Shown here in pieces: positions 39,991 through 61,997 of a stretch of DNA of 64,000 bases. The notes beneath the pieces are model-generated. The model was not told the origin of the DNA, did not search any database, and saw nothing but the letters and a program-made list of their open reading frames with translations. The stretch spans positions 15,185,001 to 15,249,000 of the forward strand of contig CM072336.1 in the NCBI GenBank assembly GCA_036874045.1, written 5' to 3'. Every line of letters starts with the position of its first letter. Position 1 is the first letter of the stretch. The DNA comes from Cymodocea nodosa. Taxonomy: Eukaryota > Streptophyta > Magnoliopsida > Alismatales > Cymodoceaceae. Made by a program: the position numbers and the translations under genes.

Positions 39991-41038
39991 TTACTAACTA
40001 TAATTAAACTTACATTTTTTTCTTTTTATATTTTTCTACTTACTAAATTATATATAATTGCTTCAGTTATATTACTTCATTCAGTTTCCCTCCCAAAGGA
40101 GGTATCAATTTCATTAACAATTCTATTGATAGGGTTAGGCACTACTTACATTGGCAATCCTCTAGTAGTTCTAACTTTTATTGATTTCTTCTGTCTAGGG
40201 GATATATTTCTATTCATATTATGATTCTAAATGGCAGTATTTCCAAATATAAGATCTAGATGATTGTTTAATTGTTGAATTATTTTTTCTAACTTCTCTA
40301 TTCTAGATCCTTGTTCAATTAATGATTCATAACTTATATTTTTGTCATTTATATTTTCTCCTCCCTAAAAATTGTTATTTCTCCAAGATAGGTTAAGGTG
40401 ATTTCTATAATTAGGGTTATAAGAATTTCCAAAGTTATCTTTCTAGTTTCTAGCATAAATAATATCTAAGTCATTAATATTTGCATTCTTTCTGCTAGTT
40501 TTTGATTTAATGATAACTCTTCTATTTTTTTTATTAACTCAGTTAATTTAATTTCAAGCATAGTGCTTGAATCTATTTCATGCATTCCCCTTAGCAATAT
40601 TCTTTTATCTGTAGTAGCTTTAGCCAAGTTTTCCCACTATGTAGTTTTTTTTACAAACTTTTCTAAGTATGCCTAAGCTTCTTCACTACACAATTTTAAA
40701 AATCCATTCTCACACGTAGATTCTAATAAAGATTTAGTTAAAACATCAATGCCTTCATAAATTATACTTATTAATTGTGCTTTACTCATTGCATGATGTA
40801 GACATTGAGTCAGTAAATCTTTATATCTTTCAAAATATTTCCAAAATGATTCTCCTTGTTTTTAGCTACACATTAATATTTCATTTTTTTTTAATCATTT
40901 GATGCGTTGGATAATATTTTTCCAAAAAAATAGAGCAAAATTTAGTCCATGCAGAAATTGAATTAGGCGATAAAGTATATAACCATCTCTTAGTTGTGTC
41001 TTTTAAAGTAAAAGGAATATATCTAAGTTTAATAGCAT
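39991..41038 (-). pseudogene. Athila B gag remnant
   Basis: The minus-strand DNA aligns with the downstream gag of element C (50640-51630), including the capsid part around 40560-41038 (region of the KYYPTHQMI and GESFWKYFERFK blocks) and the C-terminal NPNWRNHPN-like part at 40380-40450. Several stops. It is cut at 41038 within the block equivalent to 51630 of C by an LTR in the opposite orientation; the preceding AGCAT (41034-41038) is a candidate target-site repeat. Gag precedes the F-box gene exactly as in C. Confidence 0.75.
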
Positions 41039-41776
41039 TGTTTAGAATGAAAAAGTGCATAATATTAATAGTTAAATGATGGTTAATTACAGAATATTTA
41101 GCTTATCATATGAGAATTAAGCTATTATGTTATAATTGCATTGTTATATGCTTTAATGAAAGAATCTACATAATTTCAGGAAATTAGCATTGATTAAGTA
41201 CATTTCTGAACTATCGGTGAATTGCAGGCTTTTTAATTCCTAAGTCTTTGAATTTTCTATTATTTTAGAGAGTTATATTTAATGTACCGAACAGTTACAT
41301 TTTAAATACTAAAAGAATATTCAGGTACATAGTAACAACTTATTGAGTTATAGGTTTAAATGTGTAAAACTATCATGTGAGAACTCATTGAGTTAATGAG
41401 TAAAAACTGTAAGTTGTATATCTGAACTCGTTAAGTTAGATTTATACACATGTTGAATTTAAATGCTTTATTATGTCACGTGAGCTGCACATGTTTAACT
41501 CGTTAAGTTAGTATAATTATACGCGTTGAGTTAATTGAATATACACTAAGGTAACACGTTGTGTTAGTAAGCTTATAAGTTATTTCTTTATTGCACGTGT
41601 TTTATAGTTAAATCAACGAAGTAAGTCCGTTGAGTTATCTGTAACTCCACAGACCATTTATTTTCTAGTATGCCACTATAGTAGTTGTAGAAACAGGAAA
41701 TTCAAAGGAAAACTACGATTGCACGTATCACATAGGAATTCACTCGTGAAATGAAGAAGAAATCACCATCGTTGAT
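41039..41776 (+). repeat. Athila-type LTR, 5' part, interrupted by copia D
   Basis: Begins TGTTTAGAATGAAAAAGTGC, identical in form to the start of the solo LTR, and runs to CCATCGTTGATG at about 41776, equivalent to position 5725 of the solo LTR, where the copia D LTR starts. It is inserted in opposite orientation to Athila B. It contains many GTTAAGTTA / GTTGAGTTA motifs (41340-41650) but lacks the 136 bp repeats of the solo LTR, so it is another subfamily. Confidence 0.8.
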
Positions 41777-43760: not shown

Positions 43761-44963
43761 ATGGCTATTGGAAATGGTAATTTTTCTTTATATGAATGCC
43801 AAAATCTTAATCGTCCTCCTTTATTTGATGGAATACATTTTAAATATTGGAAATATAGGATGACTATTTTTCTTCAAAGTATAGATCATAAGTTGTGGTT
43901 CATGATTTCTAAATCATATACTCCATTAACTACTCCTTATAATACTTGGACAATTACTGAAAAAGAAAATGAAACTCTGAATGCTAAGGGCTTAAATATT
44001 TTATTTTATGCATTGAGTTATGAACAGTTCAATAAAGTGTCGGCATATAAATCTGCTTATGAGGTGTGGCATGCATTAGAAGTTTCACATGAAGGTACTT
44101 CTCAAGTTAAAGAGACCAAAATAAACATGTTGATTCATAAGTATGAACTCTTTAAGATGCATGAAGACGAAAATATTTCTGAGATGTTTTCTAGATTTCT
44201 TGATATCATAAACTCTTTAAAATGTTTAGGAAAGAATTTTGAACAGAAGGATTTGGTGAGGAAAATTCTCAGATCCCTAAGTTCTAAATGGTCTCAGAAA
44301 GTAACATCAATTAAGGAATCACAAGATTTAAATGTTTATACTATGAATGAACTTATAGGAAATTTAACAGCTTATGAAGTTCAATTAAATGAATCACTAA
44401 GTCACAACAAACTAAAAATGAAGAAAGAAATAGCCTTCAAAATTAATTCAGATTCTGATATATCTACTGATTTTGACAAGGATTTGATTTTACTGACTAG
44501 GAAATTCAAGAAAGCATGGAAAATTAAGAAACAGCAAAGGAACAAAAATGATAAACCCCCAACGTCAAAATCACTAAATGACAAGAATTCTTCATCTAGA
44601 AAGTATGTATGTTACAACTGTAAGAAACTTGGACATCTTTCTTCAAATTGTCTTATGAGGAAAAATGAAAAGCAAAGTAAGACAAATCAGAAGAATATGG
44701 CTCAGAAAACTCAGAAAAAGTTTTACAAGAAAAAGGCTTTGAAGGTCACTTGGGATGACACGTCTGAAGAGTTTGAATCTGAGAAATCAGTATCAAAATC
44801 TTTACATTCAGAAGGAGAACAAGAGTTAGAAGACGTTGCTCATGTGTGCTTCATGGTAGATGAGTCTGAGGTAATATCTGATCCTGAAAGTCATTCAGAT
44901 TTCAACTTTGATGAATTATTATGTGCTTATCATGCATTATTACAAAAACTTAAAAGTATGTAA
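43761..44963 (+). CDS. Copia D gag (capsid and zinc knuckle)
   Basis: 400 residues from the first ATG after the primer site. N-terminus NRPPLFDGIHFKYWKYRM is the typical start of SIRE-type gag. The UBN2 capsid region follows (YEVWHALEVSHEGTSQVKET, KINMLIHKYELFKMHEDENI, FLDIINSLKCLGK, LRSLSSKW). A CCHC knuckle CYNCKKLGHLSSNC lies at about residues 287-300 and binds the RNA genome. The tail is acidic. After residue 396 a frameshift (about 44950) leads the natural continuation, a coiled coil, into the next frame, so this stop is premature. The N-terminal 395 residues have no stop, unlike pol. Confidence 0.9.
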   Translation: MAIGNGNFSLYECQNLNRPPLFDGIHFKYWKYRMTIFLQSIDHKLWFMISKSYTPLTTPYNTWTITEKENETLNAKGLNILFYALSYEQFNKVSAYKSAYEVWHALEVSHEGTSQVKETKINMLIHKYELFKMHEDENISEMFSRFLDIINSLKCLGKNFEQKDLVRKILRSLSSKWSQKVTSIKESQDLNVYTMNELIGNLTAYEVQLNESLSHNKLKMKKEIAFKINSDSDISTDFDKDLILLTRKFKKAWKIKKQQRNKNDKPPTSKSLNDKNSSSRKYVCYNCKKLGHLSSNCLMRKNEKQSKTNQKNMAQKTQKKFYKKKALKVTWDDTSEEFESEKSVSKSLHSEGEQELEDVAHVCFMVDESEVISDPESHSDFNFDELLCAYHALLQKLKSM

Positions 44964-46047
44964 ACTGGAAAATAAAAATATTAGAAAATGTTCATTCATT
45001 ATGGAAGAAGAAAATTGTTTCCTATCTACTACATTAGAAAAGTTTAAATGTGATAATGAAAATCATGCTAGAGATTTGCAAAAATTTAGATTTAATGAGT
45101 GTATCTTGCATGAACAAATACAGAATATAAATGCTGAAAAATTAAAGATAGAATCTGAAAATGAAATGTTGAGAAACAATATAAATGAACTTGAATTAGA
45201 GATAGATAAATTAAAATTGAGAGAGCAAGATTTAAATTCTACCATTGAGAAATGGAATTTAAGTCAAACTAAGTTAGACAAACTAACTAGTACATCTGCG
45301 GTGTCTTATAAATTTGGTTTAGGATTTGATTATCCTAAATCTCAAGCCAATAAATGATTTATTAGTTGCAGTTCAAGTAAATCTAAGACTAAAATTCCTT
45401 TTATTATGAAACAAGGTAATAAATATGTAGAAGTAGGTACTTCAAGGGATGAATCAAGCAATAATAATATAAATCAATGTGATTTGTCAAATTATACTTC
45501 TAACATGACTATAAATGTTTCTATAAATCTTGTTTCTTGTTCTAGAAATTCAGTTTCTAATGTTTCTAAAATTTTAGACAATTGTAGTAAAATGAAAATT
45601 CAGAAACCTAAGCATGTAATTCAATACATTGGTATTAGACCAATTACTCATTCTACATGTGATAAAACTAAAAATTCTTGTGCAGAAAAAGATTTTGTAT
45701 GTACGGAAAATGTTAATACAAGTACAAAATCTTGGTATGAACTTACTGAAATGTATAAGCATGACCAAAATAAATTAACATCTGATAAAAATCTGTTTGG
45801 TCTTAATTATACTACATCTGAAAACAAAAAGAATGATTGTAAAAGCAATAATGCTATATGTGAGTATGAAGCTAATGATAAATCAATAGTACTTACAACT
45901 AATAAGAATATAAATGATAATGTTAAACTATTTTTAAACAAAAAGAAGAAATATGCGTTTAATGAACTTGGTTGTCAACAACATTGGGTACCAAGAAAAA
46001 GTTTTTCTTAATTTGTGTTGTAGGAGGAAATAACATCAAAATGGATC
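44950..46047 (+). pseudogene. Copia D gag C-terminal region (coiled coil), frameshifted
   Basis: In the plus-one frame the protein continues as a coiled coil (EKLKIESENEMLRNNINELE, LEIDKLKLREQDL, residues at 45130-45240), ending in the GLGFD segment typical of SIRE-type gag (45319-45333). A TGA at 45355, a TAA at 46009 and a TAG at 46021 break it; between them is a 200-codon Ser/Asn-rich stretch leading to the protease. All pieces share one frame, so only the frameshift near 44950 and three stops separate gag from pol. Confidence 0.75.
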
Positions 46048-46505
46048 TTGGACAATGGAGCGTCAAGTCACATGATTGGACAGAAAAGTCTATTACAAAA
46101 TTTTACAAATACCATGAAAGGAAGTGTAACATTTGGAAACAAAAGCAAAGATAAAATCATAGGTATGGGCAATGTTCAAATAACTCCTACTTGTGTTATT
46201 TCGAATGTACTATATGTAGAAAACCTAGGATTTAATTTGCTGAGTGTCATAAAACTAACTGAAAATGAATATTATGTAGTGTTTGAAGATAATGTATGCA
46301 AAATAATTGATAAAAATACAAATGAAATTAAGTTTATTGCTAAAAGAAAAGGTTATGTATGTATTTTATCTTTACCTTCTGGTGTAGTTGATTTAAATTC
46401 ATGTTTGCTAGCTGAAACTAGTGATGCATATCTATGGCATAGAAGGATTGGGCATATAAATATGAAACTGTTACATAAACTATCTAGGAAACATTTAGTG
46501 AGAGG
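46048..46505 (+). pseudogene. Copia D protease and GAG-pre-integrase, interrupted by Athila C
   Basis: WILDNGASSHM is the protease active site with the usual DSG changed to DNG. GFNLLSVIKLTEN and the GAG-pre-integrase block YLWHRRIGHINMKLLHKLS follow. At RKHLVRG (46505) the reading frame is cut by the Athila C LTR and resumes in frame at 59457. The changed active-site residue suggests that the protease was already decaying or has mutated since. Confidence 0.8.
46501..46505 (+). repeat. Target-site duplication AGAGG, left copy
   Basis: AGAGG at 46501-46505 and again at 59457-59461 flank Athila C exactly. The copia frame is continuous once one copy is removed. Confidence 0.95.
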
Positions 46506-47593
46506 TGTTTGTGTTTTTCCAGCACTACACAAGAAAAACTTGGATTTGTTACTTCTATTTTTACTTAGTTAATTTATCTTTATGCCTATTCTTTCTTTTA
46601 GAAGTCAATAAACAACCTTTAATACAATTTAGATATTAATTCCAATTTGTACTTTAACTGCAAGTGCACAGTGTCTATTGTATCAGTGTGTAAGTACAGG
46701 TCGATCCCACAGGGAATTGCTAACGAATTTAAGAAATATTTAATTGTGAACAATTCAAATATATATTCAATAAGCACTCCTTTGAGTTACAGTTAACTCA
46801 ACAGACTAAGTTCATTGAGTTATGGCTAACTCAACGGACTATCCTCGTGGACTTAAGTTAACTCCACGAGCCTGTCTCTTCTTTATAATACTGCTATTTA
46901 CAAAGGAATTCGGCCAACTATTGGGTGATTCCACAGATTGTAAATAACATTAATTAAGCTTTTTAATGCTAGTTAACATTGGATTTATCATTAAACAATA
47001 CTAACATTCAGATGATTCAAACTATAACCATTAAAATCTTTAAGTTTTTTGTACGAACCAATTTCAGTAAACTGTAAAATTAAAACTAACATAAAACAAT
47101 CATAAAACTAATACAGATAACATTAATCACGATACAATACAAACAATACAACACTCAAATACAACATGCAAACAAAGATAAATCTACGTGTTACCTTAGT
47201 GTATACCTAACGCGTTACCTTAGTGTATTTTCATGTAACTCAACGCGTGCAGTTATGCTAACTTAACGAGTTATAACTTAAGTAAATCTACCAGCTCTCG
47301 ACACGTGTCAATAGCAGTTTAAACATAAAATAACAATTCGGAGAGTTACAGGTATAACTATCCGATGCTTAGATGCATTTTCGGATACTTAAGAATTTCA
47401 CAGCCTACAACTTATCAATAGTTCATAAATGTACTAAATTAACATTAATTCCCCAAAATTAAGCAGATTTTTCAATTAAAGCATATAACAGTGCAATTAT
47501 AACATAATGGCTTAATTCTCATATGATAAGCTAAATATTATGCAATTAACCATCATTTAACCATTAATAATATGCACTTTTTCATTCTAAACA
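46506..47593 (-). repeat. 3' LTR of Athila C (internal deletion)
   Basis: TGTTTGTG...TTCTAAACA in plus orientation. About 26 differences in the first 430 bp from the 5' LTR by eye. It lacks the roughly 0.7 kb present at 58330-59065 of the 5' LTR, including the TATA-like site; the solo LTR has that segment, so this is a deletion here. Confidence 0.9.
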
Positions 47594-47605
47594 CTTCCCC
47601 CATAC
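47594..47605 (-). other. Polypurine tract of Athila C
   Basis: Minus-strand GTATGGGGGAAG immediately before the 3' LTR start TGTTTAG; it would prime plus-strand DNA synthesis. A second copy with the same context lies at 48896-48909. Confidence 0.85.
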
Positions 47606-49633
47606 CTAAATTTTGCTAGTCCCTTAGCAAACTAAGATTTACTTAATTGGTCTTTCAAAAAGTGCTAGAATTAATTCTTCCCCTTTTGTTTTTTTTTTCT
47701 TCTGTTTAGCATAAACATATATTCTGTATGTTTCAGTAATCAACCTGCAAAGATATTTAGAATATATGTAAATTACATACAAAGTATATCATCTTCATAT
47801 AGGTGTTAATTATATTATCGTTTGTTCTTCTTTTCATCATCTGTAATCCTGAATTTTCCAATAAGTTTTCTAGAAGAAATTTCAACAACATACGAATCAA
47901 AGTACAATCCAATTCAATATGATTAAGACAAGTAGAATAAAGAATTGTATTTCTATTAAACAACTTCAAAAGTCAATTCTAGATTCATATTTCAGCAATT
48001 CTAGATAACAGAAAATATACTCGATTCATAAGATATCTGTATTTCACAAAACACTTGTATCTTTTCAAAACAGTATATATATATTTTTTTTTTGTGTACT
48101 TTAAAAGTTAATTTAACAAGCTTGAATCATACAAGAGCTTTCTAATGTACCCATGTAACGAGCTTTTAGTCAACAATCCCAGATCTGATCAAGATCTTAG
48201 GTTGACAGATTTTCAGAGTCCTTTTTCAGGTCAGCAATCCTTACATACCTATTTGCTCAAGTATAAAAGACTCGTGATCAAACAAGTCAATAAACTCTCA
48301 AAGTTTTTTTTTTTTTTTTTCTAAAAATAAATGCACACACAAAACAAAGCATTAATCACATACTATATATGCACGTATTTCATTAATACATATGTAGTAA
48401 AACACCAATCTTATATAATCCTACTTCTATCATTTACTAAAAATATGAATCCATAACAATAAGCTCATACTTTATTTGTAGTTTAATAAGATCTACACAT
48501 AAATCATTCTACAAGTTCAATCAGTCAAAGTAAATGTATCTTTCATCATATGTGTTTTATTTAATCTAGAATTCACATCTCAGCTCCTTTAGGACTTCAG
48601 ATAATTTTTTGATTAAGCATTAAATATTCTGATTTCATTTTAAAATTGTGAAACTGTTAAACTCATGAAATTCAGAAAAATCATAAGATACTATATCTAG
48701 ATTTACATAAATAATAAATTCTATAGCATCTTCTATAGCCTTCTAAATATAACATTCAAGCAGTTTATAAAAATTTTACAGTCTCAATTATCGGATAGTT
48801 ACAGCAAGTTCATAAAAATTTTCAATTTCGTCAAAACTTTGCAGTACCATTTTAATTCCTTTAATTAACAAACTTACATGGCTGTTACTTTAATTACCTC
48901 CCCCCCATACCTACATTTTGCATTGTCCTCAATGTAAAAGATTTGACAATAAGTACAGTAATTGTAGCAGGCATGAATAAAGTTTTGTTTGATTTAAAAT
49001 TCAGGATAAGTAATTGGTTACATACCTTGTTCCATTTGTATCTCTTTCTGCATATTCCGATTTTTGATTTTGAAAAACTTTTCATTCCCAGATAAATACA
49101 GAATATAAAATAAAATAACATTTAACAGATATTAATAAATCAGTGTCTTGTGTGGAACCCAGACTACTATGCCTTTGGTGGCTCACAAGCAAGCCAGTTG
49201 GTTTCCCAGAATAGATACCAACAAACTGGATTGATATTTTGTTTTGTTTTTTTTTTTTATAAAATGAACATGAAAAACTTCAAAATTCCTTTTTTTTTTC
49301 TAAAAATGCAGAATACACACGTTAAACACACAAAATCACAGCTTAAGAACATGATTGAAAAGTAGAAACAAATGGAATAAATGTATTAGTCCAAGCAAAC
49401 TTTTTAGGCATAGTTCTTCTTGCTATTTATTCTGTTTTAATGTAGTTCTTGTTTCTTTTTAATTTGTAAACATGCAATATATTATAAATTCCAAATACGA
49501 GTGTAATACCATTAATGATATGTAATGTAGAAAGGGATCTTTTTTGGTTCCAGGGTAATGTAGCAGTGTCTATTTCTACATCTATTTCAATATACTCCTC
49601 TTCCCACTTTCATTCATTCATGTCTTCCATAAT
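47606..49633 (-). other. Athila C 3' non-coding region
   Basis: No coding frame of note. It contains the second PPT-like tract (48896-48909, minus-strand GTATGGGGGGGAGG preceded by GCAAAATGTAG), homopolymer T runs on the plus strand (48307, 49245) and sequence shared with Athila A. Confidence 0.6.
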
Positions 49634-50482
49634 CTATATTTGAAATTTCATCAGTTCATGCCACCATCTTATCAGACATAAAGTAAGATCATCTTCTTCA
49701 TTATACCACATTCCTATTTGAATTTCATTAAATTCTACAGATAGTGGTTTAGCTATTTCACTCGGTACAAGTAAAATTTCTATATAATCATCATAACTGT
49801 CTATGCTCACTATGTATAAATCAGATCTATATGCTAATGATATCTCCGTGACTAAATAGATATATCCATCAAGTATGACATGTGTTTGGTTAATTAATGA
49901 TTTCTGTCCTAGATATATTATAATGTTTTCATTCCAAGATCTGTTCAGAAAATTATACACACTTAAGCGTAAATCTACACCCCAATTTCCTGTAGGTCTC
50001 CAATAATATAATTTTTCAGGAATTGCAGAATTTTTATCAGAAAATATTAAAGCTGACCCACAATTTTTAGTTGGTGCTTCAAATATATTAGGTCTTCCTA
50101 TATTCCATTCTTCTCCTGTTATAGGATTTCTTATCAAAATATCAGGTAATGATAAACTTGCATACCTTGGTCTCGTCTTGTATATGATTAATCCTTCATC
50201 TATTCCCATAATATGACTCATTCCTTCTAATGCATTGGGTGGAATTCCAGTAGTTTCTTCCATAGCCAGATATTCATGGGTATTTGAACTACGATTAAAT
50301 GACCTCCATCTGAATCTATCTCTAATCTTACTCATTTTTGCAGCTTGTAGTCCTTGAAAATATTTTTCTTCAATATAGTCTTTAATTTCCTTTGATACAC
50401 AACACAGCCTGCACAGATCTTTAGCTGACAAGTTACTTAGTATTTCCCTTAGTGCATCCAATGGTAATTGCATTAATTCCAT
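49634..50482 (-). CDS. F-box protein carried by Athila C
   Basis: 282 residues with no stop. Residues 4-45 are an F-box (LPLDALREILSNLSAKDLCR, then LCCVSKEIKDYI), the domain that binds Skp1 in SCF ubiquitin ligases. The remainder looks like an F-box-associated region, with strand-rich stretches SLPDILIRNPITGEEW, SVYNFLNRSWNENII, DGYIYLVTEISLA and a C-terminal LCLIRWWHELMKF. No transmembrane segment. It lies downstream of the gag inside the element, 166 bp after the dyad cluster, and a TTTTACAG acceptor-like site (50492-50500) is 9 bp before the ATG. A truncated homologue sits at the same place in fragment B. Substrate and role are unknown; a host-derived gene is the natural inference. Confidence 0.85.
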   Translation of the reverse strand: MELMQLPLDALREILSNLSAKDLCRLCCVSKEIKDYIEEKYFQGLQAAKMSKIRDRFRWRSFNRSSNTHEYLAMEETTGIPPNALEGMSHIMGIDEGLIIYKTRPRYASLSLPDILIRNPITGEEWNIGRPNIFEAPTKNCGSALIFSDKNSAIPEKLYYWRPTGNWGVDLRLSVYNFLNRSWNENIIIYLGQKSLINQTHVILDGYIYLVTEISLAYRSDLYIVSIDSYDDYIEILLVPSEIAKPLSVEFNEIQIGMWYNEEDDLTLCLIRWWHELMKFQI

Positions 50483-50544
50483 TTGTCGATTCTGTAAAAT
50501 AAAAACAAAAATTTAGCAGAGACAAAAATTAACATAACTACTAC

Positions 50545-50612
50545 AGACCCTCGTGGAGTTTAAGGCATAACTCAACGGATTAAGTTCGTTGAGTTAAAAA
50601 TTAACTCTATGA
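50545..50612 (-). promoter_or_regulatory. Dyad cluster upstream of F-box gene
   Basis: Plus-strand TAACTCAACGGATTAAG, TTCGTTGAGTTAAAAATTAACTC. It has the same motifs and spacing as in fragment B. Role inferred from recurrence. Confidence 0.55.
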
Positions 50613-50639
50613 TACTATTAACTAAAAATAAAACATATA

Positions 50640-51100
50640 TACATACAGATAGTTGCTTCATATATGTTGCTTCATTCAGCTGCCCTCTTAGAAGAGGTAT
50701 CAATTTCATTAACCGTTCTATTGACAGGATTAGGTATAGCTTGTTTTGGAATTCCTCCAGTAGGTCTAACTTCCATTGGTTCCTTCTGTCTAAGTGATAT
50801 ATTTCTATTCTGATTTTGATTTGCAGTATTTCCAAATATAAATTCTAGAGGATTGTTTACTTGTTGGATTATCTTTTCTAATTTTTCTATTCTAGCTCCT
50901 TGTTCAATTAATACTTCATAACTTATGTTCTTCTCATTTATATTTTCTCCTCCCTAGAAATTGTTATTTCTCCAAGATAAATTCGGGTGATTTCTCCAAT
51001 TAGGATTATAAGAATTTCCCAAGTTATCTCTCTGGTTTCTAGCATAAATAATATCTAAGTCATTTATGTTTGTATTCTTTTCTGCTAGCTTTTGATTTAA
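50640..51100 (-). pseudogene. C-terminal part of Athila C downstream gag
   Basis: Continues the gag below after a TAA/TAA pair near 51101. The minus strand reads LNQKLAEKNTNINDLDI, then SYNPNWRNHPNLSWRNNNF (typical post-capsid segment), a stop, then KLEKIIQQVNNPLEF and IPNPVNRTVNEIDTSSKR. No CCHC knuckle remains at the place where one is usual. Confidence 0.65.
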
Positions 51101-52021
51101 TTATAACTCTTCTATTTTCTTTGTTAATTCATTTAATTTCACCTCAAGCATAGTATTGGAATCTATTTCATGCATTCCTCTTGGCAATAATCTTTTATCT
51201 GCAATAGCTTCAGCTGAATTTTCCCACTGTGTAGTTCTTTTTGCAAAATTTTCTAAATATGCCCATGCTTCTTCACTACATAATTTTAAAAATCCATTTT
51301 GACAAGTAGATTCTAATAAAGATTTTGTTGAAACATCTATGCCTTCATAAATTATGCCTATTAATTGTGCTTTACTCATTGCATGATGTGGACATTGAGT
51401 CAGTAAATCTTTAAATCTTTCAAAATATTTCCAAAATGATTCACCCTGTTTTTGGCTACACATTAATATTTCTTTCTTCTTTTTAATCATTTGATGTGTT
51501 GGATAGTATTTTTCCAGAAAAACAGAGTAAAATTCAGTCCATGTAGAAATTGAATCAAGCGACAAAGTATATAACCATCTCTTAGCTGTATCTTTTAAAG
51601 CAAAAGGGATATATCTAAGTTTAATAGCATCTATACTCATGTTCAGCATTCTCATCATTTGACAAGTTTCGTTAAATTCTCTAAGGAAATAATAGGCATC
51701 TTCTCTTTCTAATCCATGAAAATGTGGCAATTGACTAATATAATTAGATTTCAGTTCAAACCTATTTCCCTCAAAGTTTGGCAATCGAATACATGAAGGT
51801 TCATCAATTAATTTAGGATACAGAATCTCTCCTAATGGTTTTTCTACTGGAGCAGCCATCTCTACGTTCTCTTTTAAAGAAAGGTTAGCTACACCCCAAA
51901 GAATTTCATTAAAGTTCAGTTCAGAAAATTTTTCAGTACTCCTCTGCAATGAAAATTCCTGGGTAGGTGTTCTTACTAATCGTTTAGTACTTAGAGAACG
52001 AGTCCATGTGCTCATAAACAA
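51101..52021 (-). CDS. Athila C capsid gag located downstream of pol
   Basis: 306 residues, first ATG at 52021 (a second at 52015). The retrotransposon gag domain is clear: SNYISQLPHFHGLEREDAYY, FLREFNETCQMM, IKLRYIPFALKDTAKRWLYT, STWTEFYSVFLEKYYP, QGESFWKYFERFKDLLTQCP, IGIIYEGIDVSTKSLL. It would form the capsid of virus-like particles. In ordinary Athila elements this domain precedes protease; here it follows integrase and has its own TATA-like site 160 bp upstream. No stop in 306 codons. It ends at tandem stops where the conserved gag tail continues (50640-51100). Confidence 0.88.
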   Translation of the reverse strand: MFMSTWTRSLSTKRLVRTPTQEFSLQRSTEKFSELNFNEILWGVANLSLKENVEMAAPVEKPLGEILYPKLIDEPSCIRLPNFEGNRFELKSNYISQLPHFHGLEREDAYYFLREFNETCQMMRMLNMSIDAIKLRYIPFALKDTAKRWLYTLSLDSISTWTEFYSVFLEKYYPTHQMIKKKKEILMCSQKQGESFWKYFERFKDLLTQCPHHAMSKAQLIGIIYEGIDVSTKSLLESTCQNGFLKLCSEEAWAYLENFAKRTTQWENSAEAIADKRLLPRGMHEIDSNTMLEVKLNELTKKIEEL

Positions 52022-52178
52022 ATAGCAGAAGATTAATTACATACCAGTCGGAAGCTTTCCATTCTATCAATATTTGTTGTCGGATGAAGGTTGAATCAGC
52101 TGCTTCTCCGTCTAGTTCCTCCAATGCTTTCTCCTTTCTTTTAAAAGTGCTGGTAACTCGTAAATAACATTCTGTTTC

Positions 52179-52187
52179 TTATATATA
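52179..52187 (-). promoter_or_regulatory. TATA-like site before downstream gag
   Basis: Minus-strand TATATATAA in CGCAGTATATATAAGAAACAG, about 160 bp before the gag ATG and downstream of the dyad array. It suggests a separate transcript; not proven. Confidence 0.45.
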
Positions 52188-52339
52188 CTGCGCATCCATA
52201 AAGTGAATAAATTTTGTTGCAAGAACGTGGCTTGAAACGTGCATCGTGGTTCCTGTTTTTATGGGTACGTGTACCACTACTAATTTAAAATTTTGGTAAC
52301 CGCTAAATCGACGAAGTTTTGTTTGTGGTTAAAAGAATA

Positions 52340-52545
52340 ACCGTTCTACTTAATCCACGAACTAACCTCGTTGAGTTATAGATTACTCAACAGAACACAG
52401 TCGGTTACTGTTGCTAACTCCACGGACTAACTTCGTTGAGTTACAGATAACTCAACGGAGTGACCTTATATTATATTACTGACCTCGTGGACTTACGGTT
52501 CACTCAACGGACTTATTTCGTTGAGTTAACACTTGGCAACATCTA
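52340..52545 (-). repeat. Dyad motif array upstream of downstream gag
   Basis: Five or more copies of TTCGTTGAGTTA, TAACTCAACGGA and GGACTTACGG-type elements in about 200 bp; the counterpart in Athila A is 11800-12000. It lies between pol and the TATA-like site. Confidence 0.7.
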
Positions 52546-52580
52546 AGTTTCACTCTCATAAGTTTTCTATTCTGTTTTTT

Positions 52581-52800
52581 TACCGGTTTAACCGATATTA
52601 TGCTTCAGTAAAACCAATATTTTTTTTTGAAAATTAATATACAATTTTTTTCCGGTTTAACCGATACTACGCTTCGGTCAGACCTAAATATTTTTTATTT
52701 TTTATTTTTCTTTCGGTTAGACCGATACTATGTTTCGGTAAAATCAATATTTTTTTAATGTTCCGGTCATACCGATGGATCCAGTCGGTTGAACCGCAAC
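52581..52800 (-). repeat. CGGTTTAACCG palindromic repeat array after pol
   Basis: Copies of CCGGTTTAACCGATA(T/C)TA(T/C)G start at about 52583 and 52652, with more diverged copies at 52713, 52762 and 52784. Most are followed by GCTTCGGT and T-rich spacers. Spacing shrinks from 69 to 49 bp. The core is a perfect palindrome (CGGTTTAACCG). An AT-rich inverted repeat (TTTTTAATGTTT / AAACATTAAAA) follows at 52828-52864. Confidence 0.8.
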
Positions 52801-52876
52801 TATTTTTATATTATATATATATTTTTAATGTTTTTTTTTTAAACATATATATATAAACATTAAAACTGATTTCTTA

Positions 52877-53165
52877 CTAAGTAAAGCTCGAGTAGTCCTC
52901 TACTCTGACTTCTTCTATAATTCCAAAGGAGCTTTTTGGTGTTTTCAGAATAGGTTTAAGTCTTTGTCCATTTACTTTAAATATATTCTGATTTTTAGGA
53001 TTTTCAATTTCAATAGCTCCATAAGGATAAACATTTCGAACTATGTAAGGTCCTGCCCATCTAGATATTAATTTTCCTGGATGGTTATGGAGTCTAGCCA
53101 TATAAAGATATACTTCTTGTCCTATTTCAAAGCTTTTAGGAATAATTTTTCTATCATGCTAGAAT
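52877..53165 (-). pseudogene. Athila C integrase C-terminal domain
   Basis: KLISRWAGPYIVRNVYPYGA and FKVNGQRLKPIL are the GPY/F-type C-terminal module of gypsy integrase. It is separated from the core by a TAA at 53163 and a TAG in the FWHD-like segment (about 53159), with a frame change between; otherwise the sequence is contiguous. Confidence 0.8.
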
Positions 53166-54242
53166 TTAATTTTCTCTTACAGTCTTCGAATAAGCTTCAT
53201 TTCTAAATTCTTCTAATTCAATTAGTTGCATTTTCCTATTTTCAGCAGCTTGATTTAAATTAGTGTTCAAAGTTTTTAATGCCCAATAAGCTTTATGTTC
53301 TATTTCAGTAGGTAAATGACAACTTTTTCCATATACTAGCCTAAAAGGTGACATACCTAAGCTCGTTTTATAAGCAGTTCTATAAGCCCAAAGTGCATCT
53401 ATCAATCTATTAGCCCAATCTATTCTAGTAGGATTTACTACTTTTTCCAAGATTAATTTAATTTGTTTGTTTGCACTTTCTACTTGTCCACTTGTTTGCG
53501 GATGATATGATGTTGCAATTTTGTGGTTTACTGCATATTTCTTCATTAAGGCTTCAAAACTTCTATTACAGAAATGAGTTACTCTATCACTGATAATAGC
53601 TTTAGGTATTCCAAATCTAGCAAATATATTTGTTCTTATAAATTGTATTACCACTTTGTTATCATTAGTTTTTGTAGGAATAGCTTCTATCCATTTAGAT
53701 ACATAATCCACCCCCAACAATATGTAATTAAATTGATTAGACATAGGAAATGGACCCATAAAATCTATTCCCCACACATCAAAGATTTCAACCTCAACAA
53801 TAGGATTAAGAGGCATCATATTCCTCTTTGATATTCTTCTTATTTGTTGACATCTTAAACAACTTAAGCAATATTTATGAGCATCTTTGAATAGTGTTGG
53901 CCAATAAAACCCACATTGCAGAATTTTTGCAGCAGTTTTCCCTGAACCAAAATGTCCTCCACAAGCTTGGTCATGATAGAAAGACAATATGCTCGAATAT
54001 TCAGTTTCTGGAACACACCTCCTTAAAACCAGATCAGGACATTTCTTAAATAAGTAATGGTCTTCCCAATAGTAATATTTTACTCTTGAGAAAAACAATT
54101 TCTTATCTTGTCGATTCCAATCCTTAGGTGTTAAACTAGTAACAAAATAATTAACTATGTCTGCATACCAAGGCATTGTGTTGATGGTCATTAATTGTTT
54201 ATCAGGAAAATTATCCTTAATTTCAATATTTGATTTTTCTAT
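53166..54242 (-). pseudogene. Athila C integrase core
   Basis: 341 residues from 54191. The HHCC zinc finger is [11 protein letters not shown] plus CLSCLRCQQ. The catalytic triad is visible as [20 protein letters not shown] (the usual GG after the Asp is changed to RV) and [32 protein letters not shown] and [16 protein letters not shown] are Athila-type. A single TAA at 54243 separates it from RNase H in the same frame. Confidence 0.85.
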
Positions 54243-55112
54243 TTATAATCTTGATAAATGATCTGCTACTACATTCTCACTACCATTTTTATCTTTAATT
54301 TCTAAATCAAATTCTTGCAATAATAATATCCATCGGATCAATCTAGGTTTAGTTTTTTTTTTCTTTATTAGATATTTTAGAGTTGAATGATCCGTGTATA
54401 CTATTACTTTAGCTCCAATCAAATATGATCTAAACTTTTCTAAAGCAAACACAACAACTAATAATTCTTTTTCAGTAGTTGTGTAATTAACTTGAGCATC
54501 ATTTAAGGTTTTGCTTGCATAATGAATCACTCTAGGAGATTTTTCTATCTTCTGTCCTAACACTGCTCCTACAGCAAAATCAGAAGCATCGCACATTAAT
54601 TCAAATGGATGGTTCCAATTAGGTGCTTGAATTATAGGAGTTGAAATTAAGCTAGTTTTAAGTCTGAAAAATGCTTCCTTGCAATTTTTATCAAAGTTAA
54701 ATGGAACATCTTTTAATAGATTAGTTAAAGGTCTAGCTATCTTGCTAAAGTTTTTAATAAATCTTCTATAAAAACCAGCATGTCCTAGAAATGATCTAAT
54801 ATCTTTTACTGATTTAGGTTCTAGTAGATTAGAAATTACTTCTATTTTAGCTTTATCTACTTCCAACCCTTTTTTAGAAACAACATGCCCTAAGACTATT
54901 CCTTGTTTAACCATGAAGTGACATTTTTCCCAATTTAAAACCAGATTTTTTTCCACACAGCGCTTTAATATTTGGTCTAAATTGCTTAAACACACTTCAT
55001 ATGAGTTGCCATATACAGTAAAATCATCCATAAATATTTCTAAAAATTCTTTAGTCATTCTAATAAATATGCCCTGCACACACACCTTTGAAAGGTAGCT
55101 CACGCATTGCAT
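54243..55112 (-). pseudogene. Athila C RT (second half) and RNase H
   Basis: [20 protein letters not shown] holds the RT catalytic Asp pair. [20 protein letters not shown] and [20 protein letters not shown] follow. The RNase H has [41 protein letters not shown] and [10 protein letters not shown] before the stop. It is joined to the first half through a frameshift near 55100 in a TGTGTGTG run, next to a TGA. Confidence 0.85.
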
Positions 55113-56305
55113 AATTCGAATGGCATTCTTTTAAAAGCATAAGTTCCATTAGGACAGGTGAAAGTTGTTTTCTCTTGATCCTCTAATGCTACTGGAATTT
55201 GATTATACCCTGAATACCCGTCTAGGAAACAAAAATATTCTTGCCCTGCTAATCTTTCCAGCATTTGATCTATAAAAGGTAAGGGAAAATGATCTTTCCT
55301 AGTCACAACATTCAGCTTTCTATAGTCTATACATACTCTCCAACCTGATTGAATTCTAGTAGGTATCAAGTCTTGACTTTCATTCCTAATAACTATTAAT
55401 CCTGATTTCTTGGGAACTACATGGATTGGACTAACCCACGAGCTATCAAAAATCGGATAAATTATATCATTATCTAACCATTTAACTATTTCCTTCCTAA
55501 CTACTTCCTTAAGGTTTGGATTTAATCTCCTCTCAGGAATTCTAATAGGTTTAGCATTCTCTTCTAAATATATGTGGTGACAGCATAAAGTTGAACTTAA
55601 CACTTTTATATCAGTCGTAGTCCATCCTATTGCTTCTTTATAACTTTTTACTACATCTTTTAATTTAGCTATTTGATCCTCTTTTAAATCTGAAGCAATA
55701 ATGATTGGACATGTCCGTTTATCTTCCAGAAATATATAGGTTAATTCAGGAGGTAAATGTTTTAATTCTAAATGTTGCCCATCAGAAGCTAGAGCTCTTA
55801 ATTGAACATCATCATTTTTTAAATTAATTTCTTCCTGATCTCCTTGTATATTTATGCTTTCACTTTCTTCTAAAGTTTCAGAATTGATTTGCCAATTTAA
55901 TTCTTCTTGAATCACATCATCTAACATATCTCCTTCATCCTCTAAAAAGTCTATGGTATGTAAGGACATTTCTAACTCCTCAAACCTTTCTAGTTTGAAA
56001 ATATTTAATTGAGTATCCTCATTACCATATGCTAACTTCATTACTCTAGTTTTACAATTTATAATAGCCCCTAATGTTGCTAAAAATGGCCTTCCCAAAA
56101 TTAAAGATGTATCACTATTTTTATGCTTAATTTGTTGAGAATCCAAAATTACAATATCAATAGGATATATAAAATTCTTGATTTTAATTAAGACATCCTC
56201 TATTTTTCCTCTAGGGTATCTTATACTTCTATCAGCTAATTGAATAATCGTACTAGTAGGAGTTAAGCCTTCTAATCCTAAGGATGCAAATATATCACTT
56301 GGCAT
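55100..56305 (-). pseudogene. Athila C protease end and RT first half
   Basis: It starts within protease (MPSDIFASLGLEGLTPTS; the active site, which reads DLGAG instead of the common DLGAS, lies just upstream) and includes TSLILGRPFLAT. A 60-residue acidic linker follows, then RT: IRIPERRLNPNLKEVVRKEI, WVSPIHVVPKKSG, GWRVCIDYRKLNVVTRKDHF, FCFLDGYSGYNQI and [15 protein letters not shown]. 401 codons without a stop. Frame lost after CNA. Confidence 0.88.
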
Positions 56306-57540
56306 AACATTTATACCTGCACCTAAGTCTATTAAGGTTCTTTCTAGAATGATATTTCCTATGGTGCATGATATAACAGGGATTCTAGGATCAGATAACT
56401 TTTTAGGAATTTGTGGCAGAAATAGGGAACTACTTTGCTCAGCTAAAAAGACCTTTCTAAGAACTTTTCGCTCTCTTTTCTTAGTACACTAATCCTTCAG
56501 AAATTTAGCACAAAGTGACATATTCTGCAATAGATCTAACATAGGAATGTTAACTTGTACTTTTTCAAAAATTTCTTTGATTTTTTCTTGTTTTTAGGAA
56601 TTGTTTGTTGTAATCTTTCAGGATAGGGTGCTAAAGATTTTGATTTCAAAGACTCTTTTTCTTTCAGTTGATTTATTTGATCATTTTTAGCTTCAATTGT
56701 AGATTCAGATTGTTCTTCAGTGATTTCTAGATTTTCAGCTATTACATTTTCATTATCATTTTGATGTTTACTCTTGTCCACCTTCATATCATTTTCATTT
56801 TGAGTTCTTGGTGGTATATCAGTTCTAGATCTTAATGTTACACATACATCTTCTAGATTTTCGTTACTTTCATGATGTTTTTGTATATCATTTTTGTGAT
56901 TATGATCTTCAATTATTTTTAGTTTTAAAGTGCATTCTTTAAATTCTCTTACATTAGTGTTTTCTGTTTGCTGTATATTTTGCAAGTTGTGCAGGTTTAT
57001 AACATTATAATTTCCATTGTCCTACTGCAAAACTTGTATTTTCATTGCATTTTTGTCTAATGCTTTTAATTTTGTTTCCAGATCATCTAATTTCATTGCA
57101 TTCAATTTTTGATCAATTTTTTTTATGGCCTTTTCAGTTTCGTAAATTATATCCTGTTTAGGTTCTGAATATGCCTCCTTATAGTTTAACCGGTTGACTT
57201 CTTGTTGTTGACACACAAAGTATTCCAGTTTGTCCAGATTTTGCTCTATACTATGCTCTAGTCTGTCATAGCTATCCCTAACTTCAGTGTCTCTCATCAT
57301 ATTACACATTCTATACTGACCATCAGTTGGGTAAACTATAGGATTATCATACTCGGCTCTATTATATTGAGGATAATTCATTTGTTGTTCATGGGATCTA
57401 ACAATCTGTAAATGTCTCAATTTCAAACAATCAGAAATGTCGTGTCCTTCAGAATTGTAGAATTCACATATGCTAATTAAATGTTTCAGAAATCTTTGAG
57501 CATAAGCATATGTCATATTCTCAATTACAGAAGAAAACAC
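56306..57540 (-). pseudogene. Athila C 5' frames: gag C-terminal-like region and protease start
   Basis: 57022-57540 (172 residues) contains CEFYNSEGHDISDC, a zinc knuckle whose second Cys is Tyr, then a coiled-coil-like Lys/Glu stretch. 56536-56985 (149 residues) has CVTLRSRTDIPP and PYPERLQQTIPKNKK, the usual gag-to-protease linker. 56306-56535 codes protease start with two stops. There is no capsid domain between the primer site and these frames, only about 90 bp, so the capsid is truly absent from its usual place. Confidence 0.75.
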
Positions 57541-57587
57541 ACAACTCTAGCTATTAAAACGAAACAGCTCTAATAGTTGCTTATATC

Positions 57588-57631
57588 TATTCAATTCAAT
57601 TCAATTCACTTCGACTCAATTCAATTCAATT
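57588..57631. repeat. TCAAT-type short tandem repeat
   Basis: ATTCAATTCAATTCAATTC..., a 5 bp unit repeated about eight times with one interruption, directly downstream (minus strand) of the primer site. Confidence 0.85.
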
Positions 57632-57648
57632 CCCCAGCAACGACGCCA
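57631..57648 (-). other. Primer binding site, tRNA-Asp-like
   Basis: Minus-strand TGGCGTCGTTGCTGGGGA matches the 3' end of plant tRNA-Asp with two mismatches, as expected for the Athila lineage. It is 7 bp from the LTR. Confidence 0.8.
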
Positions 57649-57655
57649 TAAAACT

Positions 57656-59456
57656 TGTTTGTGTTTTCCCAGCACTACTCTAGAAAAACTTGGATTTGTT
57701 ACTTCTATTTTTACTTTGTTAATTTATCTTTATGCCTATTCTTTCTTTTAGAAGTAAACAAACAACCTTTAATACAATTTAGATATTAATTCCAATTTGT
57801 ACTTTAATTGCAAGTGCACAGTGTCTATTGTATTAGTGTGCAAGTACAGGTCGATCCCATAGGGAATTGCTGATGAATTTAAGAAATGTTTGATTGTGAA
57901 CAATTCAAATATATATTCAATAAGCACTCCGTTGAGTTACAGTTAACTCAACGGATTAAGTTCGTTGAGTTATGGCTAACTCAATGGACTATCCTCGTGG
58001 ACTTAAGTTAACTCCACGAGCCTGTCTCTTCTTTATAATACTGCTATTTACAGAGGAATTTGGCCAACCATTGGGCGATTCCATAGATTGTAAATAACAT
58101 CAATTAAGTTTTTTAATGCTAGTTAACATTGGATTTATCATTAAGCAATACTAACATTCAGATGATTCAAACTGTAACCATTAAAATCTTTAAGTTTTTT
58201 GTACGAATCAATTTCAGTAAACTATTAAATTAAAACTAACATAAAACAATCATAAAACTGATAGAGATAACATTAATCATGATACAACACAAACAATACA
58301 ACACTCAAATACAACATACAAACAAAAATAAATTGTTTTTGGTATTTTTGTTTTGATGTGAACATGGAAATGGGTGAAAGGTGAAATGTAAAGTAATCTC
58401 ACTTGACAGGAAATACTTCCGACACTACTTGCAACGCGATTACACCACTGAAAATTAAACCACTTACAATTCTGTCTCCTCTCCCTATAGAATAGCGAGT
58501 CAGAATTGCAAGATGATCTCCTCTTCAGCATACAGGCATCAACCCGAAGCCAAGGCTAAAAGCTTTACGATCTCCTGAAATATGAGTCAGCGTTTGGTGA
58601 AAATGTCTTCCCTTCTCGCGACGCGATCACTCCTCACAATGGTTGTCAGGCACTGTGTTTGGCTCGAAATCGACTCGACATCAGGCAAGTATCCTCACAG
58701 ACCTCCGATGATTGGTGATTATGGTGGTGATACGATGGTTGGTATGATACTTCAGAGAATCACCGATACTGTTTGTAGAAAGCTCAGTGCTCCTCCTCTG
58801 TATACACTAGCCGTCCATCGATCACACTTTCTTCTTTTTTTCTTCTTTTCTTTTATATTTCTTCAGTAGTAACTGCTTCTGCTTGAATGATTTGTTGGAT
58901 TTCCTTCCTTCAGATCAACGACGATGCTTCCTTCTCCATGCACGATTGAATTCCTGTGTGATACGTGCAAACGTGGTTTTTCCTTCCAACTGTTTGTTCC
59001 TGCAACCGCTACAGTGGCATTTTGGAAAATAACTATAAAATACATGCAATAAAGAAATAAGCCGCTAACCTAACGCGTTACCTTAGTGTATTTTCATGTA
59101 ACTCAACGCATGCAGTTATGCTAACTTAACGAGTTATAACTTAAGTAAATCTACCAGCTCTCGACACGTGTCAGCAGCAGTTTAAACATAAAATAACATT
59201 TCAGAGAGTTACAGGTATAACTATCTGATGCTCAGATGTATTTTCGGATACTTAAGAATTTCACAGCCTGCAACTTACCAATAGTTCATAAATGTACTAA
59301 ATTAACATTAATTCCACAAAATTAAGCAGATTTTTCAATTAAAGCATATAATAGTGCAATTATAACATAATGGCTTAATTCTCATATGATAAGCTAAATA
59401 TTATGCAATTAACCATCATTTAACCGTTAATAATATGCACTTTTTCATTCTAAACA
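57656..59456 (-). repeat. 5' LTR of Athila C (1801 bp)
   Basis: Same ends as the 3' LTR. It contains a TATA-like site (58851-58857), dyad clusters (57925-58020) and the block 59061-59141 shared with the copia D LTR. Confidence 0.92.
58851..58857 (-). promoter_or_regulatory. TATA box of Athila C 5' LTR
   Basis: Minus-strand TATAAAA in GAAATATAAAAGAAAAG, the same context as the solo LTR. Confidence 0.55.
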
Positions 59457-61997
59457 AGAGGTTTACCAAAGATTAAATACTCAAAGAACTTTATATGTGA
59501 TGCATGTGAGTTAGGTAAACTTCACAAAAACTCTTTTAAATCCAAAATTGATATTTCAAGCAAGAGAGTCTTAGAACTTATACATATGGATCTATTTGGA
59601 CCAACAAGAATCATGAGTCTTGGTGGTAAACGGTATGTATTTGTTTTAGTAGATGACTTCTCTAGATACACTTGGGTATATTTTCTAGCATCTAAGACAG
59701 AAGTTTTTGAAAAATTTAAAATGTTTTGCAATTTTGTTCAAAATGAGTAGAGTGTCTTTATTCAAAAACTTAGGAGTGATCATGGAACTGAATTTGATAA
59801 TGATCAAATGGATAACTATTGTAACAAGCATGACATTAATCATAGATTTTCTTTTCCAAGAGCACCATGTCAAAATGGTGTTGTTGAGAGAAAGAATAGA
59901 TCACTTCAAGAAATGGCTAGAACTATGTTGAATGAACATAAGTTACCTCAAAATCTTTGGGTTGAAGCAGTAAATACAGCTTGTTATGTTATTAATAGAA
60001 GTCATTTAAGACCTCATGTTAATAAAACTCTTTTTGAAATTATGTTTAATAGGGTTCCAAAAATTTCCTATATGAAACCATTTGGCTGCAAGTATTTTAT
60101 TCTTAATACTAAGGATAAAAGGGATAAATTTCAAGCTAAATCGGATGAAGGAATTTTTGTAGGTTACTCTACTAGAAGTAAAGCCTATAGAGTATATAAC
60201 AAGACTTCTAGGACTATTGAAGAAACCCTCTATGTAAGCTTCAATGAAAATTCTCTTAGAGAATCTCAATCTAAAGCTGATAATGATGATATGATCAATT
60301 TTCCAAATGAGTTAGAGATCAATAGAGAGATTGATGATTTATCTGAGAAAATAAAAAATATGAACTTAAATGATCAAACTAATGATGAAAGTGATGGATT
60401 TTCAGATGTTGATGAGAATATTGAGGAAAATCAGAGAAATTGGCATTATTCTTCATCACATCTCATTACTCAAGTCATTGGTGATATTAATGAGGGAGTT
60501 AAAACTAGAGCTTCAGTAAATTTAAATAGTATGTGTATATTTGTTTCTATGGTGGAACCAAGGAATATACAAGAAGCATTATCTGATGAAAATTAGATAG
60601 TGGCAATGCAAGAAGAACTAAATCAATTCATCAGAAATGATGTATGGGAATTAGTCTCTCCATCAGAAAATCAGTCCATAATAGGTACAAAGTGGATCTT
60701 TAGAAACAAAACTAACGAAACTGGTCAAATTATAAGGAATAAAGCTAGATTAGTTGCACAAGGGTATACACAGGAAGAATGATTAGATTATGATGAAACA
60801 TTTGCTCTTGTGGCTAGGTTAGAAAGTATTAGAATATTATTGGCCTATGCTTGTTATATGGATTTTAAATTATATTAAATGGATGTAAAGTGTGCATTTC
60901 TAAATGGTTTAATTAATGAAGAAGTCTATGTTAAACAATCACCTGGATTTGAAGATATTAAAAATCCTGACTTTGTGTATAAATTGAAGAAAACCTTATA
61001 TGGTTTGAAGCAAGCATCTAAATCATGGTATGAAAGATTGTCTACTTTTTTAATAGAAAAAGGCTATATCATGGGAAAAGTGGATCATACTCTATTTATT
61101 AAGAGAGATGGTAAAGATCAGATTGTTGTTCAAATATACGTGAATGATATAATCTTTGGAGCAACCTCTAATAAGTTGATAGAAATATTCTCTGAAGAGA
61201 TGACTAATTAGTTTGAAATGAGTATGATAGGAGAACATTCATATTTTCTACAACTTCAAATTAAGCAAATGGATAAAGGTATATTTTTAAATCAGGAAAA
61301 ATATGCAGATAAAATGCTTAAGAAATTTAATTTTAATGATACAAGGATTCGAGGAACTCCTATGAGTACTACTTTAAAGTTAGATATTGATGACATAGGA
61401 AAATCTATAGATCAAAGAAAATACAGAAGTATGATTGGTTCTTTACTTTATTTGACTGCTAGTAGACCTGATATTATGTTTGCTGCGTGTGTTTGTGCTA
61501 GATTTCAATCTAATCCTAAAGAATCACACTTAATTGCAGTTAAAAGAATATTTAGATATATACAAGGAACTAAAAATTTTGGACTGTATTATTCTAAGGA
61601 TAGTTCAAAAGATCTTATAGGATATACTAATGCTGATTATGCAAGATCTAAATCTGATAGAAAGGGTACCAATGGCACATGTCAATTATTGGAAAATAAT
61701 TTGGTGTCATGGTTTAGTAAAAAGCAAAACTGTGTAGCACTTTCTACTACAGAAGCTGAATATGTTGCTGCTGCACTGTGTTGCACTCAAATTCTGTGGA
61801 TAAGGGAAACTTTAGAAGATTTTCGATTATCTTATGATATAACTGAGATTTATTGTGACAGTAATTTTGCAATACATCTTTCCCAAAATCCTGTATTACA
61901 TTCAAGAGCAAGGCATATAGAGGTTAGACATCATTTTCTAAGAGATAACGTAATTAAAGGAAAAATTAAAGAAAATTATCAATATTCACTATTTTGA
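59457..61997 (+). pseudogene. Copia D pol: integrase, RT, RNase H with five nonsense codons
   Basis: One frame throughout. Integrase: zinc finger end ICDACELGKLH, then LIHMDLFGPT, RSDHGTEFDN, NGVVERKNRSLQEMAR (the D, D and E residues). RT: GTKWIFRNKTNETG, QMDV-equivalent MDVKCAFLNGLINEEVY, TLYGLKQASKSWYERL, YVNDIIFGA (catalytic D changed to N). FEMSMIGEHSYFLQLQIKQ is SIRE/Maximus-type. RNase H: STTEAEYVAA, YCDSNFAIHLSQN, RARHIEVRHHFLRDN. Stops at 59748, 60594, 60780, 60876 and 61209 each look like single-base changes. The last 30 or so residues (the ADIFTK tail) are replaced by unrelated sequence from about 61968. Confidence 0.9.

Follow-up and report, generated by a model that had tools for sequence, protein, structure and literature searches.

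Structure of the Element at the Locus

The window analysed here is a stretch of 64,000 nucleotides of Cymodocea nodosa (contig C2, positions 15185001–15249000; the genome comprises 374.6 Mb in 28 contigs), and it contains on its minus strand a complete Ty3/Athila-like LTR retrotransposon of 12,951 bp (46506–59456), hereafter element C, delimited by its LTR ends, by matching 5-bp target site duplications (TSDs) and by a blastn map. The TSD, AGAGG, is read in the flanks at 46501–46505 on the left and at 59457–59461 on the right. All parts of the element lie on the minus strand. In the 5′ to 3′ direction, the 5′ LTR (57656–59456) is followed by the primer binding site (PBS, 57631–57648), which we take to be tRNA-Asp-like and whose motif recurs in the fetched copies, by two short ORFs, the PR/RT part of pol (55100–56305), the RT/RNase H part of pol (54243–55112), the integrase (INT, 53166–54191), the capsid part of gag (51101–52021; Pfam Retrotrans_gag, E = 1.1e-19), an F-box ORF (49634–50482), the polypurine tract (PPT, 47594–47606) and the adjoining 3′ LTR (46506–47593), which falls short of the 5′ LTR in length by about 0.7 kb. 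Among the pol domains, RT, RNase H (RH) and INT are recognised by Pfam, and the protease (PR) is placed by position, its Pfam match being weak (Peptidase_A3, E = 0.031).

The order PR-RT-RH-INT is likewise found in two other copies of the family, c6a and c15a, and INT precedes the capsid part of gag in element C, c6a, c15a and one older copy. The hallmarks of Ty3/gypsy elements are present, namely TG..CA LTR ends, 5-bp TSD, PBS and PPT, with the exception of copy c15b, whose LTR starts with TA. The sequence-only reading had named an Athila retrotransposon. This stands as far as a complete, TSD-flanked, Ty3/Athila-like element is concerned, but not for the canonical position of gag: because the capsid part comes after INT and not upstream of pol, the element is called Athila-like here, a label that rests on the protease, gag and PBS motifs.

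The ORF preceding the protease (57022–57540) carries a zinc-knuckle-like remnant. Such a remnant stands before the protease in element C and in c6a (in locus L023), with the capsid part behind the integrase, and the gag of these two elements may be split around pol. The assignment of a nucleocapsid zinc knuckle is weakened, as each of the two keeps three of the four ligand residues; a Pfam search gave no match for the counterpart of this ORF in c6a, and no zinc knuckle was matched within the piece of c15a examined. Element C itself looks like an insertion into a Ty1-copia-like element, so labelled by inspection, which lies on the plus strand and is split by element C into two parts (43761–46572 and 59586–61211); gag-like ORFs begin at 43761, with pieces reaching to about 46572, and IN/RT pieces begin at 59586.

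The F-box ORF is in sense with element C. It has 282 open codons with the F-box domain at residues 4–40, it matches PF00646 with E = 1.1e-10 and 41.4 bits against a curated cut-off of 20.5, and the plus-strand frame at this place has 29 stops. Its position between gag and the 3′ LTR, as first read from the letters, agrees with both Pfam and the LTR map. The gene had also been described as intact: there is indeed an ORF open over 282 codons in which Pfam recognises an F-box, but it is not intact, since other copies reach 379 codons. In element C the homology runs on to 49346 past stop codons in frame (codons 283, 291 and 352), so that the full region of F-box homology (49346–50482) is interrupted here.

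Two further Athila-like fragments lie in the window. In fragment B, the truncated F-box homologue that had been pointed out is present on the minus strand (39488–39877; 72% amino acid identity, cut at about codon 131), beside and downstream of a gag homologue in two pieces with 80–83% amino acid identity (40514–41039, minus strand). No F-box was found in element A (about 9.0–17.0 kb of the window), nor a capsid part of gag except a 17-residue match at E = 0.027. Internal deletions, or a state before the capture of the gene, are offered as readings of this. The pol of element A has 68–75% amino acid identity.

The F-Box Protein and Its Relatives

An F-box ORF of 379 codons is present in c3 (the same locus as L007), c15a (L004), c2, c7, c6a and c9, and frames of 375–379 codons were read in five of the 11 fetched B-type copies, a set selected for long frames. 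The F-box domain (PF00646) was matched in all 12 full-length copies scanned. Moreover, FBA_1 (PF07734) was matched at E up to 1 in five of these 12 (best 0.0028; 14.3 bits in one member against a cut-off of 21.1), so that the C-terminal part weakly resembles FBA_1. In the genome itself, an FBA_1 search gave no match among 31 candidates, and the control of that search likewise matched nowhere, so that nothing about a host origin follows from it. Prediction of the structure from a single sequence reached a pLDDT of 34, which is not usable.

Neither one sequence nor an alignment (A1) found a homologue among 5.8 billion proteins, in collections that may hold few plants, and none was confirmed among viral contigs, a collection of which the same may be said. 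In the PDB, no relative was found with one sequence, and alignment A1 gave one match at E = 0.15, which is not credible.

As for the closest host gene, which the sequence-only reading had suggested identifying, 12 places were picked from the best 150 listed PF00646 matches, that is, 11 with open frames of at least 260 amino acids and the top-scoring one. Among them, 11 are of the element type. The sole host-type place (L040) matches the element protein at chance level (best E 0.62), and the donor was not found among these 12 places.

Presence of the Gene Across the Family

The abundance of the gene was estimated with short patterns, with up to three mismatches for the F-box 32-mer. This pattern occurs at 3,726 sites genome-wide (1,867 + 1,859), a gag 32-mer at 3,558 sites and an RNase H 32-mer at 2,653 sites, counts that depend on the conservation of each 32-mer; the reversed control of each gave 0. 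Occasional transduction of a gene, seen in one or a few copies, is ruled out by the 3,726 sites. A protein search with the window F-box scored 138 of 6,266 first-look candidates, all spanning query residues 1–282 and 90–94% identical, the window's own copy apart, and the query from fragment B scored 150 places of 4,879 candidates.

On contig C1, the listed exact sites (88 for the F-box, 94 for gag) form 31 pairs in which gag lies 1.5–2.3 kb upstream on the same strand, against a mean of 0.18 and a maximum of 3 in 1,000 random placements; there are 0 pairs with gag downstream and 0 on opposite strands. Similarly, the 40 exact RNase H sites form 13 pairs with an F-box that follows 3–10 kb downstream in the same orientation, where random placement gave a mean of 0.65 and a maximum of 5; 0 pairs have it upstream and 1 has it on the opposite strand. 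On this contig of 28.9 Mb, 87 of the 88 exact F-box sites lie between 4.6 and 22.9 Mb, a clustering that is as expected of a pericentromeric family.

Among 27 distinct copies, which were chosen through F-box searches and many of them for open frames, 23 have gag, whole or in part, upstream of the F-box within about 2.2 kb. These comprise eight of 10 C-type copies (exceptions c7 and c6b), nine of 11 B-type copies (exceptions L033 and L036) and all six further C-type loci, the window copy included, where gag has at least 200 codons. Many family members carry such a sense additional ORF between pol and the 3′ LTR. Matching 5-bp TSDs were found in all seven elements of which both LTR ends could be read (c7, c9, c15b, c15c, c6a, c6b and element C), the check covering 10 fetched C-type copies and element C, with the ends of c3, c15a, c19 and c2 unreadable.

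It is conceivable that this is an ordinary host F-box family with retrotransposons inserted nearby, as plants have large F-box families. Against this, the gene lies within LTR and TSD boundaries in all seven testable elements, its spacing to gag is fixed, and, of the 12 places chosen among the 150 PF00646 matches listed, 11 belong to the element; this explanation is refuted for the copies examined and is extremely improbable in general. It is thus strongly supported that the F-box gene travels with the Ty3/Athila-like family, as had been concluded from two copies. The same claim is upheld by the near-equal counts of F-box and gag sites and by matching synonymous divergence, and the retrotransposon flanks proposed as a check on it are found around F-box copies examined.

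Derivatives Without pol or gag

The order PR-RT-RH-INT is kept upstream of the F-box, in the same orientation, in two of the 10 fetched C-type copies (c15a and c6a). In addition, c19 retains a piece of INT and c2 is rearranged; in the remaining fetched C-type copies, no pol belonging to the copy itself was seen. Copies c15b, c15c and c7 (L019–L022 and L017/L018) share one pol-deletion junction without GT-AG and have different TSDs. Splicing as the source of the pol-less copies is rejected in view of this common junction without GT-AG, which is read as an inherited deletion, and its occurrence in three insertions indicates that a pol-less, non-autonomous subfamily was amplified. Furthermore, c7 (L017/L018) and c6b (L025/L026) are flanked by TSDs and lack both pol and gag, so that the F-box is their only recognised gene; c7 retains the full 379-codon frame and c6b has stops. 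These derivatives were picked by their F-box, and their frequency is not representative of all copies.

Lineages and Age of the Acquisition

In amino acid identity to copy c6a, the C type lies at about 93–95%, intermediates at 80–87%, the B type at about 75–78% and L051 at 59%, and an older copy beside c6b, with the order INT-gag-F-box, at 56%. The synonymous divergence of fragment B is 0.33 for gag and 0.33 for the F-box, and in the older copy dS is 0.57 for gag, 0.69 for INT and 0.71 for the F-box. Since the F-box and its neighbours have like values of dS, the gene would have been there before the lineages split; that is, it was probably acquired before that point.

F-box and gag distances are correlated across 17 copies (r = 0.85, 0 of 2,000 permutations), and no such correlation was seen within the subfamilies (r = −0.24 and −0.03), which speaks against the explanation preferred below.

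Signs of Selection on the F-Box Gene

The pairwise dN/dS set consisted of 25 ORFs of at least 300 codons, 13 of 38 having been dropped because they were shorter than 300 codons or had no initial M. The median dN/dS is 1.03 for the three youngest pairs (dS below 0.03), 0.60 for 27 pairs at dS 0.03–0.06 and 0.34 for 85 pairs at dS 0.3–0.6 (range 0.22–0.47). Between B and C it is 0.35, in 72 non-independent pairs of nine B and eight C copies, c15c being left out. When neutral evolution was simulated under the observed mutation spectrum at a dS of about 0.3, the ratio had a median of 0.84 (5–95%, 0.65–1.09) and a minimum of 0.52 of 100. It is in the F-box itself that the real ratio is lowest: residues 1–45 have a dN/dS of 0.13 (dN 0.082, dS 0.624), to which the high dS over 45 codons contributes, and the part beyond residue 45 has 0.41 (dN 0.118, dS 0.288). 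The sequence-only reading had made a dN/dS near 1 among element copies a point against it; such a value is found in the youngest pairs only, and 0.34–0.35 at depth, a pattern which indicates selection while the element was mobile and decay thereafter.

Changes shared among 29 F-box copies were also compared with changes seen in one copy. Singleton changes have an N/S of 301/124 (2.43) and shared changes of 187/127 (1.47; p = 0.0017), against a neutral expectation of 3.39, and there is one shared nonsense change vs 19 singleton ones. Within B the contrast holds (p = 0.0035), and within C it does not (p = 0.48). For gag (18 copies), singleton N/S is 158/72 vs 63/58 for shared changes (p = 0.0025), nonsense changes numbering 18 among the former and 10 among the latter. 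An MK-type contrast between subfamilies, with 4 S to 10 N fixed and 206 S to 369 N polymorphic, gave p = 0.78 (0.51–0.79 at looser thresholds).

Several copies were left out of these sets. L004 and L007, being the same loci as c15a and c3, were left out of the pairwise, MK and shared/singleton sets; L003 and c15c, frame-shifted near their ends, and L029 were left out of the MK and shared/singleton sets; and six of the eleven copies L041–L051 were left out of the shared/singleton set. Copies of gag under 200 codons were left out of the shared/singleton, stop-density and distance sets.

The dN/dS of the F-box (0.40–0.46) is higher than that of gag (0.22–0.25) and pol (0.16–0.26), which counts against a reading by selection. 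On the same side stands the density of stops, which is equal in F-box and gag, with 15 in 2,268 codons for the F-box vs 11 in 1,759 for gag, in six copies not selected for open frames (the window copy and five taken by score). A faster decay of gag than of the F-box was dropped as a result, the contrast having arisen from the choice of copies with open F-box frames.

Under another explanation the gene would be a passenger, that is, a captured host gene without function whose conservation is only apparent because the copies are young. The value near 1 in the three youngest pairs, the MK-type contrast that is not significant, the absence of a shared/singleton difference within C and the fact that both F-box copies of the window are broken all agree with it. 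Nevertheless, all 85 deep pairs lie below the minimum of the neutral simulation, nonsense is nearly absent among shared changes, and frames of 375–379 codons persist in lineages with a dS of about 0.3, and we regard this explanation as unlikely. Taken at face value, the constraint at depth suggests that the gene was kept functional while the element spread.

Proposed Role of the F-Box Protein

F-box proteins pick proteins for destruction; the N-terminal domain binds SKP1, and the C-terminal part chooses the substrate. The explanation we prefer, and hold to be fairly probable, is that of an early-captured F-box gene under purifying selection in the mobile phase, by which the SCF ubiquitin ligase would be redirected for the benefit of the element. 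A Ty3/Athila-like lineage would have taken up a host-type F-box gene before the present subfamilies split, and would since have carried it in sense, with the capsid part of gag before it and the 3′ LTR behind it, amplifying it to thousands of copies. In the mobile phase the protein would be subject to purifying selection, and each inserted copy would then decay neutrally. When expressed, the 379-amino acid protein would bind plant SKP1 through its N-terminal F-box, and its C-terminal part would present a substrate, turning the ligase to the advantage of the element. Since the gene seems to have been kept working during the spread, the element may use the protein-disposal system of the plant, and a role as an SCF adaptor is likely. 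The logic would be comparable to that of accessory proteins of viruses.

As for the benefit, we favour the lifting of a host restraint, and a role in the element's own cycle is the main alternative. In the former case, the F-box protein would remove a plant factor of silencing or immunity and so free the element, in analogy to polerovirus P0, which acts in this way on ARGONAUTE. This would fit an element with thousands of copies and a C-terminal part that evolves faster (0.41) beside a conserved F-box (0.13); the same pattern of rates is, however, usual in plant F-box genes generally. In this specific form the explanation is rather improbable, and suppression of silencing by the protein is speculation. 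In the latter case, the protein would serve the turnover of Gag or INT, or control of the cell cycle, on which nanovirus Clink is reported to act. The F-box adjoins gag in sense, which agrees with this, but TSD-flanked derivatives without pol, two of them also without gag, retain the F-box, which argues against a role tied to Gag or INT encoded in cis, and we consider such a role unlikely.

Returning to the redirection of the SCF ligase, a more far-reaching version can be put forward tentatively: the protein may be a family-wide ubiquitin-ligase adaptor that turns SCF against a restraining factor and is useful enough that pol-less and gag-less derivatives were amplified as mobile F-box genes, in elements whose capsid gene has moved behind the integrase.

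Relation to Known Systems

It is known that retroviruses hijack ubiquitin ligases, and that polerovirus P0 and nanovirus Clink are F-box proteins of plant parasites which enter SCF ligases; the latter two belong to viruses and not to retrotransposons, and are likened to the present protein by function, not by sequence. In the literature search, no tested ubiquitin-ligase hijack by a plant retrotransposon was found. Among the papers listed, at the level of titles and the beginnings of abstracts, no published description was found of a family-wide, selected F-box gene in an LTR retrotransposon, from which absence from print does not follow.

An F-box gene inside a retrotransposon is as such already known. 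In flax, a Ty1-copia element whose LTRs enclose an F-box gene was described in 2016 (PMC5142383), and in Thlaspi arvense an "LTR-gene" in the F-box family has been reported (PMC8764390). In both, the gene lies inside LTR boundaries, as here; the passages concerned tell of one case each and of no family-wide presence or selection, and the flax element, unlike the present one, is Ty1-copia. What is real here is that the F-box is an acquired gene of a plant LTR element throughout its family, and there are signs of selection at the protein level. The env-like ORFs of Athila and Bagy2 are likewise in sense, between pol and the 3′ LTR, and kept in many copies, but here an F-box is recognised in the additional ORF, and the text of the review that treats them contains neither "F-box" nor "ubiquitin" (PMC7264820).

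It has been reported that orchid Ty3/gypsy elements carry a 2-ODD/AlkB m6A demethylase ORF, a host-type gene which was kept through subfamily formation, as in the present case; however, those elements are Tat/Ogre-like, the domain is another one, and it was biochemically tested (PMC9289625). The survey of 121 angiosperm genomes in that report gives 15 extra domains, and its main text does not mention F-box (PMC9289625). Genes captured by LTR elements in rice and sorghum are also host genes within LTRs, part of them under purifying selection, but that work is a catalogue of captures and "F-box" is absent from its main text (PMC3726574). The giant gypsy elements of planarians named Burro are LTR elements too and carry domains with links to ubiquitination and apoptosis, differing in animal host, in other domains and in much larger size, again with no "F-box" in the main text (PMC6431247). 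The main text of PMC11963269 does not contain "F-box", and PMC12786077, which names the orchid demethylase, does not contain "ubiquitin", "proteasome" or "SCF". The reverse case, animal F-box genes that captured transposon domains, is the subject of PMC12062965.

Its thousands of copies, its several lineages and those derivatives that carry only the F-box make the family a natural experiment, in which the question of a hijacked ligase is directly testable. In addition, since transposon copies account for 11 of the 12 places chosen among the 150 F-box matches listed, counts of F-box genes may be inflated, which is a warning for annotation.
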